NCBI GenBank assembly: GCA_001899285.1 | Contig: MKWA01000024.1 | Span: 124,001-188,000 of the forward strand | Direction of reading: 5' to 3' | DNA: 64,000 bases | From: Rhizobiales bacterium 64-17 | GTDB taxonomy: Bacteria; Pseudomonadota; Alphaproteobacteria; Rhizobiales; Xanthobacteraceae | Part shown: in pieces, positions 2-41,326 of the stretch | Layout: every line of letters starts with the position of its first letter | Numbering within the stretch: the stretch's first letter is position 1 | Notes under the pieces: generated by a model | Database searches by the model: none | The model's input: the letters and a program-made list of their open reading frames with translations, nothing else | Told to the model about the DNA's origin: nothing | Made by a program: the position numbers and the translations under genes

Positions 2-2080
2 GCGCTGCTCGATCCACGTTCGATCGCCGTTCTCGGCGCGTCGGATCGCCCCGGGTCGATTGGTGATATCATTCTTGGATCGCTGCGCAAATGCGGCTTT
101 GCCGGTGACGTTTGGCCGATCAATCCGCGCTACAAGGAAATTCACGGTTTTTCCTGTTACGAGCATATCAGCCAGATTCCCGGCGCACCCGACGTTGTCG
201 CGATCTGTACCCGTGGCGATACTGCGCCGGCACATCTGAAAGACATACTGGCGGTCGGCGGCCGCTCTGCGGTGATCTACGACGGCGGCTTCTCGGAAAG
301 CGGCGACGAAGGTGCCGCACGCCAGCGCGAGATCACCCTGTTTTGCCGGGATAACGACATTGCCCTGTGCGGTCCGAACTGCATGGGAACGATCAATGTC
401 CATAGCGGCGCGACCACCTACAAACTCCCGTTGCTCGATACAGCGCGCCTGCGCGGCAATGTCGGGCTGATCTCGCAAAGCGGATCGATCACGATTGGTC
501 TGCTGGGAGATACGCGCCGGTTCGGATTTTCAACGGTGGTGTCCACTGGCAATGAAGCCGGATTGAAGGCGGCGGACTATGTCGATGCGCTGATCGACGA
601 TGAAAGAACCGGCGTCATCGCGCTCTTCATCGAAACGGCCCGCGATCCTGCGCGGTTTCGTGCGGCACTGGAGCGCGCCGCGAATGCCGACAAGCCGGTC
701 GTTGTGCTCAAGGTGGGTCGCAGTGCCCGCGCAGAGCAGGCGGTGAAGAGTCATACCGGCGGGCTTGCCGGCGAGTCGCGGATATTCTCGGAGATGCTGC
801 GCAAGGTTGCTGCCATTGAGGTCGCTGACATCGATGAGATGACGGAGGTTCTGGCTGCGCTGCAGGTGCGCAAGCGTCCGGCTGGCCGCCGCATCGCCGC
901 GGTGACCGGTTCGGGTGGCCAGGCTGAACTCGTTTTGGATATCGCGGAAGCTCATGCCGTGGATTTGCCCCCGCTGTCGGCGGCGAGCCGTGCCGAAGCG
1001 GAATCCGTCATCGGCCATCTCACGGGCGATGGCAATCCGATGGATGCCTGGGGCAACGGCGACGTTGCACGCAATCTCCCTCACGCGTTTTCTGTTCTCG
1101 ACCGCGATCCCAATTATGATGTGATCGTTCTCTGCAATGAGAATATCGATAATGCTCCGATCGGGCGTTCCGAAGCGGTGATGAAGTTGTTTTGTGTGTC
1201 GGCGCAAGCATCGTCGAAGCCACACTTCGCTCTCAACATGCGCCCCGGTTTGATGCACAGCGGTAATCTCGAACTCCTGCGTGAGGCGGGAGCCGGGATG
1301 CTTGGCGGCGCGCGCCAGGGCCTGGGTGCGATTGATCGTGTGGCTGTGTTTGAGCAGGCTCGCCGGCGTGCCAAAGCAGAAATGTCTTCCATCGAATCGA
1401 TCAGTCTTCCGGGTACAGGCACGGGCCGGACGATCAACGAATATGATTCCAAACAAATCCTTGCCCGCTACGGTTTGCAGGTCGGCGATGAGATGCTCGT
1501 GCAGACACCGGAGCAAGCGGTCGCCTTCGCAAACAGCATCGGCTGGCCAGTGGTTCTCAAGGTCGCGTCGGATGACATGCCGCACAAGACCGAGGTCGGC
1601 GCCGTCAAACTCGGTCTCAAGAGCGAAGCTGACCTGACAACTGCCTTCACGGAACTCGCCGGCACTGTCGCCAAAATCAAACCGAAGTCGCTGCGCGGCT
1701 ATCTCGTCCAGCCGATGGTTTCCAGCGGCGTTGAAGTTTTCATCGGGCTGAGACGTGATCCGGAATGGGGCATGACGATTCTGTTCGGTGTCGGTGGAGT
1801 TCTCATCGAACTGATCCGCGAAAGCGCGATGCGGTTGCTGCCGGTGTCGGCTGACGACATTGACCGGATGCTACGGGAGACGCGCGCCTGGCAATTGCTG
1901 TCCGGTGTGCGTGGGCAGCCACCGGCCGATATCGAGGCGCTCGCTGCGTGCATGGCAGCGGTGGCCCGCTTTGGCTTGGCCGCCGGCGACAGTCTCGCGG
2001 AACTCGATCTCAATCCGATCAAGGTGTTGCCGCGTGGGCAGGGTTGCCGCGTGCTCGACGCTTTGATTGTCACGTCGTGA
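2..2080 (+). CDS. Acyl-CoA synthetase, NDP-forming (acetate-CoA ligase family), 5' truncated
   Basis: The reading frame is open from the window edge, so the N-terminus is missing; 692 residues are visible. It starts inside a CoA-binding Rossmann domain (GASDRPGSIG at visible residues 12-21), followed by succinyl-CoA-ligase-like domains with KSHTGGLAG, whose His (visible residue 251) matches the phosphohistidine loop of this family. From about residue 478 there is a C-terminal ATP-grasp domain. Known members interconvert an acyl-CoA and an NDP with acid, CoA and NTP. The substrate cannot be told from sequence. A crotonase gene follows after 17 bp with a strong AGGAGA site, so the pair probably serves degradation of a carboxylic acid. 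Base composition is lower in GC than the genes beyond 4.3 kb. Confidence 0.88.
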   Translation, partial: ALLDPRSIAVLGASDRPGSIGDIILGSLRKCGFAGDVWPINPRYKEIHGFSCYEHISQIPGAPDVVAICTRGDTAPAHLKDILAVGGRSAVIYDGGFSESGDEGAARQREITLFCRDNDIALCGPNCMGTINVHSGATTYKLPLLDTARLRGNVGLISQSGSITIGLLGDTRRFGFSTVVSTGNEAGLKAADYVDALIDDERTGVIALFIETARDPARFRAALERAANADKPVVVLKVGRSARAEQAVKSHTGGLAGESRIFSEMLRKVAAIEVADIDEMTEVLAALQVRKRPAGRRIAAVTGSGGQAELVLDIAEAHAVDLPPLSAASRAEAESVIGHLTGDGNPMDAWGNGDVARNLPHAFSVLDRDPNYDVIVLCNENIDNAPIGRSEAVMKLFCVSAQASSKPHFALNMRPGLMHSGNLELLREAGAGMLGGARQGLGAIDRVAVFEQARRRAKAEMSSIESISLPGTGTGRTINEYDSKQILARYGLQVGDEMLVQTPEQAVAFANSIGWPVVLKVASDDMPHKTEVGAVKLGLKSEADLTTAFTELAGTVAKIKPKSLRGYLVQPMVSSGVEVFIGLRRDPEWGMTILFGVGGVLIELIRESAMRLLPVSADDIDRMLRETRAWQLLSGVRGQPPADIEALAACMAAVARFGLAAGDSLAELDLNPIKVLPRGQGCRVLDALIVTS

Positions 2081-2097
2081 ACTCAGGAGAAGGTTTG

Positions 2098-2922
2098 ATG
2101 GGCGAATTGGTAAAATACCGTGTCGAAGACAAGATCGGCTATGTGACGCTAAACCGTCCCGACAAACTGAATGCGTTGAATTTCGCTTTCAAGAACGAGA
2201 TCATCGAGGCGATCGAGAATGCGGATAAAGATCCCGCGGTTTCCGTCATCGTCCTGAATGCGGAAGGGCGCGCTTTCTCCGTTGGCTTCGATATCGGTGG
2301 TGGTGGTCCGGAGCGCGACAAGGGACGCGACGATCCGCTGCACTGGGATCCGCCGTTGCACAACAGTCTGGAAATGGCGCTGTCGCCATGGACGGCGACC
2401 AAACCGGTTATCGCATCGGTGCAAGGCTACGTGCTGGGTGGTGGCTGCGAACTTGCCATGATGTGCGACCTGACGATTGCTGCCGATGACGCCAAGTTCG
2501 GTGAACCCGAAGTCCGCTTCTCGCACGTCGGGCCTGTCGTCGTCATGCCCTGGATCATCGGGCTGAAGCGCGCGCGAGAGCTGCTCTATTTCGGGGACAT
2601 GATCGATGCGGAAACCGCATTGTCTTACGGCATGATCAATCGCGTGGTGCCGTTGGCCGAGTTGGGGGAGTATACCAAACGCTATGCGCGCCGTCTGGCG
2701 CTCATAGATCCGGTTGCGTTGCGCTGGGGGAAACGCTCAGTGAACCGTAGCGCTGAAGTGGCCGGGATGCGCTCGGCGCTCGAATCCGGTGTTGATGGCT
2801 TGGTCGCGCTCTATGCGGCTAAGACCGAAATCGGCAAGCAATTCGATCATCTCGTGAATGAAAAAGGGCTGAAGGCCGCGCTTGATTGGCGTGCCGGCCA
2901 GTTCAAAGAGTTCAAGATTTGA
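2098..2922 (+). CDS. Enoyl-CoA hydratase/isomerase (crotonase) family protein
   Basis: This 274-residue protein is a crotonase-fold enzyme acting on an acyl-CoA thioester. It begins MGELVKYRVEDK at an ATG preceded by AGGAGAAGG; an upstream in-frame start lies inside the previous gene and has no such site. The two oxyanion-hole segments are visible: EGRAFSVGFD near residues 58-67 and GYVLGGGCELAM near 109-120. GEPEVRF follows and carries the Glu expected at one catalytic position. The gene sits in an operon between an acyl-CoA synthetase and an ABC ATPase, which suggests a beta-oxidation-type step on a synthetase product. Hydratase and isomerase cannot be separated here. Confidence 0.9.
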   Translation: MGELVKYRVEDKIGYVTLNRPDKLNALNFAFKNEIIEAIENADKDPAVSVIVLNAEGRAFSVGFDIGGGGPERDKGRDDPLHWDPPLHNSLEMALSPWTATKPVIASVQGYVLGGGCELAMMCDLTIAADDAKFGEPEVRFSHVGPVVVMPWIIGLKRARELLYFGDMIDAETALSYGMINRVVPLAELGEYTKRYARRLALIDPVALRWGKRSVNRSAEVAGMRSALESGVDGLVALYAAKTEIGKQFDHLVNEKGLKAALDWRAGQFKEFKI

Positions 2923-39132: not shown

Positions 39133-39501
39133 ATGCTCCGCAAAGCCCTCGCGGCCATCATCCTGATCCCGATCGTTCTGCTGCTGGTGATGTTTGCCGT
39201 CGCCAACCGGCAGGTCGTGACCCTGTCGTTCGACCCGTTCGATGCGGCGAACCCTGCCTATGCGGTGGCGGTGCCGCTGTTCGTGCTGATTTTCGTGCTG
39301 GTGGTGCTCGGTGTGCTGCTGGGCGGCGTCGCCGCGTGGTTGCGGCAGAGCCGCTGGCGCCGCGCCGCGCGCCGGCTCGACGGGCAGATGCGCCGCCTCA
39401 ACGACGAGGTGCATGAGTTGCGCCGCCGCGAGATGGAGCGCAAATCACAGCCCAATTCGCAGCCCGTGGCGCCGTCGGTGCCGATGCTTCCGCCCCTTTA
39501 A
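39133..39501 (+). CDS. lapA: LapA family membrane protein
   Basis: This 122-residue protein has two membrane helices (about 7-26 and 44-66) and a cytoplasmic coiled-coil tail rich in Arg (QMRRLNDEVHELRRREME), matching the LapA/DUF1049 domain. E. coli LapA helps regulate LPS synthesis through LpxC stability. The downstream LapB is not encoded here. It sits after ihfB, as in many proteobacteria. Confidence 0.85.
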   Translation: MLRKALAAIILIPIVLLLVMFAVANRQVVTLSFDPFDAANPAYAVAVPLFVLIFVLVVLGVLLGGVAAWLRQSRWRRAARRLDGQMRRLNDEVHELRRREMERKSQPNSQPVAPSVPMLPPL

Positions 39502-39516
39502 GCGGAGCCGTTTGTT

Positions 39517-40572
39517 GTGCGGATCGTCACGGCGTCTGACATCGACCACGCGCTCGACCCTGCGGCCCTGATCGACGCGCTCGATGCGGCGTTTCGCGCC
39601 GATATCACCGTGCCGATGCGGCATCATCACACGATCCCGCAGCCTGGCGCCGATGGCACCATGCTGATCATGCCGGCGTGGACCGGGGTAGGGCAGGATC
39701 CGGAAAAGCGTGAAGCGGTTTTTCGAAAAGATCACGCCCAAAATAAAGAAGCGGCGCGGGATGCGCGCTTCATCGGTTGCAAGATCGCGACGATCCTGCC
39801 GGACAATGCCAAGCTCGGGAAACCCTCGCTCTATGGGCAATATCTGCTGCTGTCGGGCGAGAGCGGCGAACCGCTCGCGGTGATCGACGGCCGCGTGCTC
39901 ACCGCATGGCGCACCGGTGCGGCGTCGGCGCTTGCCGCGCGCTATCTCGCGCGAAAGGATGCGAAGCATCTCGTCATGATCGGCGCCGGCGCGCTGGCGC
40001 CGCATCTGATCCGTTCGCATCTGGCGGTGCGACCGATCGAACGCGTAACGCTGTGGAACCGTAGCCGGGCGCGTGCGATCTCGACCGCCTTCGCGCTCGC
40101 TGCCTCCGGGATCGAGATCGATGTCACCGACGATCTGCAGGAGGCGGTGCGGCAGGCCGATATCGTTTCCTGCGCGACGCTGGCGACCGAACCGTTCCTG
40201 AAGGGCGACTGGCTCAAGGCCGGAACCCATGTGGATCTGGTCGGCAGCTTCACCCCGAAAATGCGAGAGGCGGACGACCGGGTGCTGACCCGTGGCCGGC
40301 TCTATGTCGACACCCGCGGAGCGCTGAAGGAGGCGGGCGATCTCACCGGGCCACTGCGCCGCAAGGTCATCAAGGCGGCGGACGTGCAGGGCGACCTGTT
40401 CGAATTGTGCCGGAAAACGGTGAAAGGGCGGCGGACCCAGCGCGAAATCACCGTGTTCAAGTCCGCCGGCACGGCGGTCGAGGACTTCGCCGCCGCCGTG
40501 CTGGTGTGGCAGCGGCTGACGTCGGAAGGGCTTGCGGGCGACAGGGCAGACAAAGCCGCCCCGGCAGGCTAG
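39517..40572 (+). CDS. Ornithine cyclodeaminase/mu-crystallin family protein with repeat-derived insertion
   Basis: This 351-residue NAD(P)-binding enzyme of the OCD/mu-crystallin family begins at a GTG (MRIVTASDID). It has DGRVLTAWRTGAASALAARYL and the Rossmann loop VMIGAGALAPHL, followed by HVDLVGSF. Members act as ornithine cyclodeaminase, alanine dehydrogenase or ketimine reductase, and which one is unresolved. Residues 61-78 (DPEKREAVFRKDHAQNKE) interrupt the alignment expected between MPAW and FIGCKI. The underlying DNA is a palindromic repeat typical of Rhizobiales intergenic regions. The frame is kept, so the protein may still fold with a surface loop. Confidence 0.86.
   Translation: MRIVTASDIDHALDPAALIDALDAAFRADITVPMRHHHTIPQPGADGTMLIMPAWTGVGQDPEKREAVFRKDHAQNKEAARDARFIGCKIATILPDNAKLGKPSLYGQYLLLSGESGEPLAVIDGRVLTAWRTGAASALAARYLARKDAKHLVMIGAGALAPHLIRSHLAVRPIERVTLWNRSRARAISTAFALAASGIEIDVTDDLQEAVRQADIVSCATLATEPFLKGDWLKAGTHVDLVGSFTPKMREADDRVLTRGRLYVDTRGALKEAGDLTGPLRRKVIKAADVQGDLFELCRKTVKGRRTQREITVFKSAGTAVEDFAAAVLVWQRLTSEGLAGDRADKAAPAG
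39697..39748. repeat. Short palindromic repeat element inside a coding region
   Basis: The segment begins GATCCGGAAAAGCGTGAAGC and ends with GATCACGCCCAAAATAAAGA (39729-39748). From memory it resembles the dispersed Rhizobiales palindromic repeat (a CCGGAAAAGTG...GGTTTTCCGAAAAGATCATGC-type sequence). The arms CGGAAAA (39701-39707) and TTTTTCG (39719-39725) form a hairpin with one G.U pair. It lies in frame within the cyclodeaminase gene. Confidence 0.6.
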
Positions 40573-40642
40573 AACCCGGCGCGGGCGGCCCTTGGAGGCG
40601 TCCGGCAAACAGCCCGAGGCATTGGCGGCAGGCGTTGTTGGT

Positions 40643-41326
40643 ATGGCGTTGGTGGTGAAAATCTGCGGGCTGAAGACGCCCGAGACGGTGGACGCGGCGA
40701 TTGCTGCTGGCGCCGATCTCGTCGGCTTCGTGTTCTTCCCGCCGTCGCCGCGCCATCTCAGCCTCAGCGCCGCCAAGGTGCTGGGCGCCCATGTCGGCGG
40801 CCGGGCGGGAAAAGTCGCGCTGACGGTGAACGCCAGTGACGACGAACTGCACGACATCGTCGGCGCGCTTGCGCCGGACATGCTGCAACTGCACGGCATC
40901 GAAACGCCGGAACGCGTCGCGGTGGTGCGCTCGCGGTTCGGTCTGCCGGTGATCAAGGCGCTGCCGATCGCCGAGCGCGGCGATCTCGCGCCGGTCCGTC
41001 AGTACGAGAAGGTTGCCGACACATTGCTGTTCGATGCGCGGCCGCCGCGCGATGCGACGAGGCCCGGCGGGCTCGGCACGCCGTTCGACTGGACGCTGCT
41101 GCGCGGGCTCAATCTGCCGGTGCCGTATCTGCTGTCCGGTGGGCTCGACGCCGCCAATGTCGCGCAGGCGATCGCCATCACCGGCGCGCCCGGTGTCGAC
41201 GTGTCGTCCGGCGTCGAACGCGCGCCGGGTGAAAAGGATATCGAGAAGATTCGCGCCTTTGTGCGCGCGGCGCGCGGCGCGCAACCCGAGAGCGCGTCCG
41301 GTGAGCGAAAGGCAGCGAGCGTATGA
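40643..41326 (+). CDS. trpF: Phosphoribosylanthranilate isomerase
   Basis: The 227-residue TIM barrel isomerises phosphoribosylanthranilate in tryptophan synthesis. It begins [19 protein letters not shown] with the catalytic Cys in KICGL, then [11 protein letters not shown], and ends with [11 protein letters not shown] and the phosphate-binding GVDVSSGVE (Asp in the first). An upstream frame from 40532 is dissimilar. The stop overlaps the trpB start (ATGA). Confidence 0.95.

Follow-up and report, generated by a model that had tools for sequence, protein, structure and literature searches.

In-frame palindromic elements in the protein-coding genes of Rickettsia were reportedly described by Ogata et al. 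in 2000 and 2002, and the rhizobial repeat RIME is said to go back to Osteras et al. in 1995. Rickettsia palindromic elements (RPEs) are palindromes that lie in frame within protein-coding genes (PMC10969869, PMC3733652). The second source describes the GTAG- or CGTC-tagged REPs of many genomes as mostly intergenic and close to the ends of ORFs, with some copies inside ORFs; it also notes that recB of two Xanthomonas species carries REPs at nearly the same position that differ from one another (PMC3733652). RIME and the Sm repeats appear in PMC2245857 and PMC2873474 as rhizobial intergenic repeats of Rhizobium and Sinorhizobium.

The locus analyzed here lies in a window of 64,000 nucleotides (the whole stretch of DNA under analysis) belonging to G000, a genome of 4.63 Mb in 26 contigs, and very probably represents a dispersed palindrome that was inserted in the loop of a reductase, is read in frame and tolerated, and has entered this loop repeatedly. 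RPEs and the present element are alike in being dispersed palindromes found in frame in alphaproteobacterial genes; on the other hand, RPEs occupy many host genes whereas interior copies of this element are seen in one gene only, and the 4.6 Mb size of its host genome is unlike the RPE case. Like the intragenic REPs, it is a short palindrome located mostly between genes with some copies in an ORF, but it is a longer, nested palindrome of 49 bp in which an exact GTAG at the left border is found in 4 of 86 copies and CGTC or GACG near an end in 3 of 86, a count restricted to these exact tags, PMC3733652 allowing also the variants TGTC and CCTC. With RIME and Sm repeats it shares the property of being a repeat of rhizobial intergenic regions. 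The first-pass annotation of this DNA was right in citing a Rickettsia precedent. The case is not an isolated one, since the same loop is occupied in two other species, and in-frame palindromes are documented beyond Rickettsia (PMC3733652). In-frame palindromes are already known, and the present ones recur clearly at one permissive site; in the open-access literature, covered through titles and abstract openings, no report was found of this element inside a protein.

The protein encoded by the host gene matches NCBIfam NF004793/PRK06141 with 389.7 bits (cut-off 322) as well as Pfam PF02423 (ornithine cyclodeaminase/mu-crystallin), the name given by the model being delta1-pyrroline/piperideine-2-carboxylate reductase; in a Foldseek ranking the first place is held by 6t3e, a delta1-pyrroline-2-carboxylate reductase, and the third by 7rbp, a piperideine-2-carboxylate reductase. 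The closest relative of G000 at this gene is genome G016, whose enzyme is identical in sequence to that of locus L057 from Pseudolabrys sp. ACE_PRO36. Close to its C terminus the G000 enzyme has five residues, encoded at 40516-40530 of the window, that are absent from G016.

Table. Features of the reductase gene and of the palindromic element, in window positions
Feature	Position	Strand	Basis or remark
Reductase gene hosting the element (ornithine cyclodeaminase/mu-crystallin family; PRK06141-like)	39517..40572	+	351 aa, GTG start
Family-foreign DNA, in-frame residues 57-81	39685..39759	+	Orthologue alignment; borders +/- ~6 bases
Left-border TAG, out of frame in the window (GTA GGG)	39689..39691	+	Sequence, copies
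Core of the palindrome (49 bp, sub-family A)	39691..39739	+	19 genomic copies aligned, RNA fold
Left outer arm GGGCAGGATC	39691..39700	+	Sequence, genomic copies
Left inner arm CGGAAAA	39701..39707	+	Sequence, fold
Right inner arm TTTTTCG	39719..39725	+	Sequence, fold
Right outer arm GATCACGCCC	39730..39739	+	Sequence
A-rich tail AAAATAAAGA	39740..39749	+	Comparison among copies

The sequence at 39697-39748 reads as the first-pass annotation described it, and the hairpin recognized there is borne out, although the element proves to be larger (Table); the palindrome of the window folds with -21.5 kcal/mol (z -3.96), none of 200 shuffles being as good. The copy of G016 folds with -30.2 kcal/mol (z -5.57), whereas the hairpin is weaker in the copies of two further genomes, G038 (z -1.61), where 13 of 200 shuffles do as well, and G111 (z -2.46), where 5 of 200 do. 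The core pattern, with up to three mismatches allowed, has a single match in the window and none in 100 shuffles. Within 39500-40000 no Rfam family reaches its gathering cut-off; the best match over the element (39686-39745) is BASRCI408, the Brucella sRNA CI408, with 27 bits vs a cut-off of 398, and this model may contain a related repeat. A terminator role was considered and rejected: two terminator-like matches occur in 39400-40700, where 0.8 are expected, and neither coincides with the palindrome.

The supposition that the repeat is dispersed was correct, since it is not single-copy: a 71-base query has 19 matches at E<=0.001 in G000, the window site included, the remaining copies being 78-87% identical to that of the window. 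The consensus of the copies is the nested palindrome GGGCGTGATC CGGAAAA ... TTTTCCG AAAA GATCACGCCC, the first block of which is the commonest form of the left outer arm and differs at two bases from the arm found in the window; TAG stands at the left border in 53 of the 86 sub-family A copies of the four genomes. Sub-family B is rarer, five copies having been placed, that of G038 being GCGCGGCCAGCAAAAGTGGGAACCGGTTTTGCGTCCGGCCGCGC; GGCC outer arms are found on both sides of the G038 insert, on one side of the G111 insert and in none of the other three placed copies. Relatives are found with a 59-base query in 51 plasmid records, most of which belong to Rhizobium, with 22, or to Bradyrhizobium, with 13; in 19 of the 20 plasmid rows listed no annotated feature lies beneath the match, the gene table being incomplete, and one record is unannotated. 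RAYT transposases, which we take to belong to PF01797, were considered as mobilizers of the element and discarded, Y1_Tnp (PF01797) being found in none of the four genomes, one of which is 83% complete, while the control search was positive in 5 of 14.

In the window protein 28 residues separate W55 from R84, an interval that in 23 close orthologues without insert comprises 5 residues in 15 cases and 2-11 in the other 8. In keeping with this, residues 1-335 of the protein match positions 1-312 of the NF004793 profile and therefore include 23 extra residues. The net extra length between MPAW and FIGCK thus comes to about 23 residues; in-frame extra residues had been correctly placed there by the earlier annotation, their number having been underestimated at about 18. 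The register used in the window (GGG CGT GAT CCG...) is clear of the TAG and TGA of the element itself and is open in 73 of the 86 sub-family A copies, the other forward registers being open in 28 and 1. The most probable course of events is that a copy of the dispersed, normally intergenic palindrome was inserted into the DNA coding for a β-hairpin tip with a net length change that was a multiple of three; given this and a register avoiding both stops, the element would be translated as about 23 extra residues and the reductase would keep working. We infer that the insert is translated in vivo and that the enzyme carrying it would stay active.

At the same loop the sister genome G016 bears a near-consensus copy whose left end is two residues shorter. 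Between G000 and G016, the 319 codons outside the insert display 36 synonymous and 2 nonsynonymous changes vs 2.5 and 5.5 (path-averaged) across the insert region (25 codons), a difference with a Fisher test p of 0.0002 or 0.0008 depending on the rounding of the counts; both indels, 2 codons in the insert and 5 near the C terminus, preserve the frame. Since nonsynonymous changes are few outside the insert and many inside, the enzyme is under purifying selection while the peptide of the insert drifts, the insert being tolerated. The AlphaFold2 model obtained from a 43-row alignment has a mean pLDDT of 91.7, which averages 58 for residues 61-70 and 53 for residues 71-80 of the insert. These low-confidence residues are flanked by strands 47-56 and 85-93, so that in the model the insert lengthens the tip of a β-hairpin; the extra residues are probably disordered and located at the protein surface.

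As anticipated, the orthologue alignment indicates that the insert residues are not common to the family, the element being present in the loop in 4 of 68 distinct rows and absent from 64. In G038, placed in the same genus as G000, the loop reads MPAW-TQARPAKVGTGFASGRAPELNSAGE-RFLGCK and contains a forward sub-family B copy in a different register, while in G111, of another genus, it reads MPAW-TLSLAAQPDAKPVSTFAGRAADDQ-RYIGCK and contains a reversed sub-family B copy. In the genus of G000, where 43 genomes were searched and 12 matched, all three close orthologues (identity at least 67%, the next being 51%) carry the element, and in the genus of G111 the loop element is present in one of eight genomes. 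The distance between the TGG codon and the start of the element varies among the carriers. An exact long-insert pattern between conserved codons is found in 3 of 391 genomes of the family, each a known carrier; G000 is missed by it because its GGT codon differs. Even without the element this loop is the most length-variable segment, with a spread of 9 residues in the 64 element-free rows, the next being 6. The 68 rows were drawn from 93 loci, with 15 exact duplicates removed; L057 and L059, having the same sequences as L046 and L047, were taken out, as were L065/L134, with MLAW for MPAW and, by eye, an insert-free loop TAGEGSFLGCK, and L049, L051, L056, L089, L101, L107 and L110, whose ORF was unrecovered or not comparable, while 16 of the 46 genome matches, having no locus, were covered by the exact pattern alone. 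In locus L127 of genome G079 the loop MPAW-AVAGRAEGD contains GCTGGACGCGC, which resembles the right-hand arm seen in G111 and may be a scar left by excision, although it is too short for proof.

Altogether 91 copies were placed in the four genomes (19 in G000, 18 in G016, 42 in G038 and 12 in G111), the survey covering for G038 the listed 40 of 68 candidates and leaving aside 2 of 13 G111 matches, loci L178, L258 and L259, which were fetched and gave no match, and weaker matches. Four of these copies are interior, each at the enzyme loop, this assignment being based on coding potential on both sides for three copies and on homology for that of G111, which the coding rule scored as a tail, so that the sensitivity of the rule is imperfect. 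Two further copies yield C-terminal tails, of MtnA in G000 and of a luciferase-like monooxygenase in G111, and for the other 85 the rule gave no confident coding context. ORFs spanning a copy number 61, of which 37 (32 copies), extending 40 codons or more to either side, were scanned with Pfam; of the remainder, 7 belong to the four copies in the enzyme and 17 reach 30-39 codons on one side. In the scanned ORFs no domain extends across the element or occurs on both its sides. Loci L112-L124 (12 Bradyrhizobium and one Hyphomicrobiales MAG), found via the peptide of the repeat, contain by eye no convincing interior case.

A tree of 31 rows built after removal of the loop places G111 with two non-carriers (support 100/96), the positions of G000/G016 and G038 remaining unresolved. 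The tests reject a single clade of all four carriers (p-AU 0.00125) and a G038+G111 clade (p 0.00182), but not a G000+G016+G038 clade (p-AU 0.25); insofar as the groups were chosen after the carriers were known, these p values are weakened and are to be taken as indicative. From the clade tests and the tree we conclude that the loop has apparently been entered at least twice, and three insertions are likely because G000 and G038 differ in both sub-family and register, although the clade that is not rejected would also accommodate, in that genus, a single insertion with later replacement. The balance tips slightly towards a still-mobile palindrome, with no RAYT partner found in the four genomes, that would use this enzyme loop as its landing site and would have produced three separate insertions there, from two sub-families, in both orientations and in three registers, each giving a different peptide. 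That a single ancestral insertion was lost from most descendants, flipped in one line and overwritten by the other sub-family elsewhere is rather improbable: palindromes are prone to deletion, the GGCC arms common to the G038 and G111 inserts hint at shared ancestry plus inversion, and the GCTGG.CGCGC stretch of G079, perhaps a scar, together with the G000+G016+G038 clade, would fit such a history, but this history has to contend with the rejection of the all-carrier clade, with the supported clade joining G111 to two non-carriers, with a single carrier among eight genomes of its genus, with the unequal distances from the TGG codon and with the sub-family and register differences mentioned above.

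The recurrence, i.e., the entry of the same loop in related species at least twice and probably three times, would be due to this loop being the most length-tolerant place of the protein; we infer that tolerance rather than target preference is responsible. A preference of the insertion machinery for the DNA of the loop, with tolerance in a secondary role, is unlikely though worth bearing in mind; the confinement of interior copies to this loop among the 91 placed and of the exact pattern to known carriers among the 391 genomes speaks in its favor, whereas the insertion points lie several bases apart and the length variation seen without the element explains the survival of insertions there. 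Recruitment of the peptide for an enzyme function is very doubtful, for the peptides of the three lineages are dissimilar, the insert evolves much more rapidly than the remainder of the gene and the AlphaFold2 model assigns it no confident structure, even if the reading frame stays open in the two sister genomes as well as in the other carriers. Finally, a decaying pseudogene or an assembly error, in favor of which nothing was found, is hardly credible in view of an insert common to two separate genomes, strong purifying selection outside it and a near full-length profile match.

Repeated entry of a permissive loop adds a case of in-frame palindromic insertion for Pseudolabrys-like bacteria (Xanthobacteraceae) and, occurring at one and the same site, renders tolerance, target choice and fate of the peptide directly comparable. 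Annotators are also warned that the loop residues owe their origin to a repeat and do not characterize the family. If the three insertions are true, they would amount to a natural repeat experiment in which new protein sequence is made out of selfish DNA.

Some minor observations concern other copies. In four of the scanned ORFs (L006, L155, L165 and L166) domains are found downstream of the element only; in L006 and L155, from G000 and G016, the element precedes a PAS-domain protein, with which it shares an open frame, and is probably 5' of the true start. The MtnA (methylthioribose-1-phosphate isomerase) of G000, encoded at positions 1453-2655 (-) of L017, extends for 38 residues beyond the start of another copy, which is read in the register used in the window, and its best profile match stops at residue 362 of 401. 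In G111, the luciferase-like monooxygenase encoded at 418-1554 (+) of L186 takes its last 18 residues from a sub-family B copy, ARSAKVDTGFAFDRAVAK.
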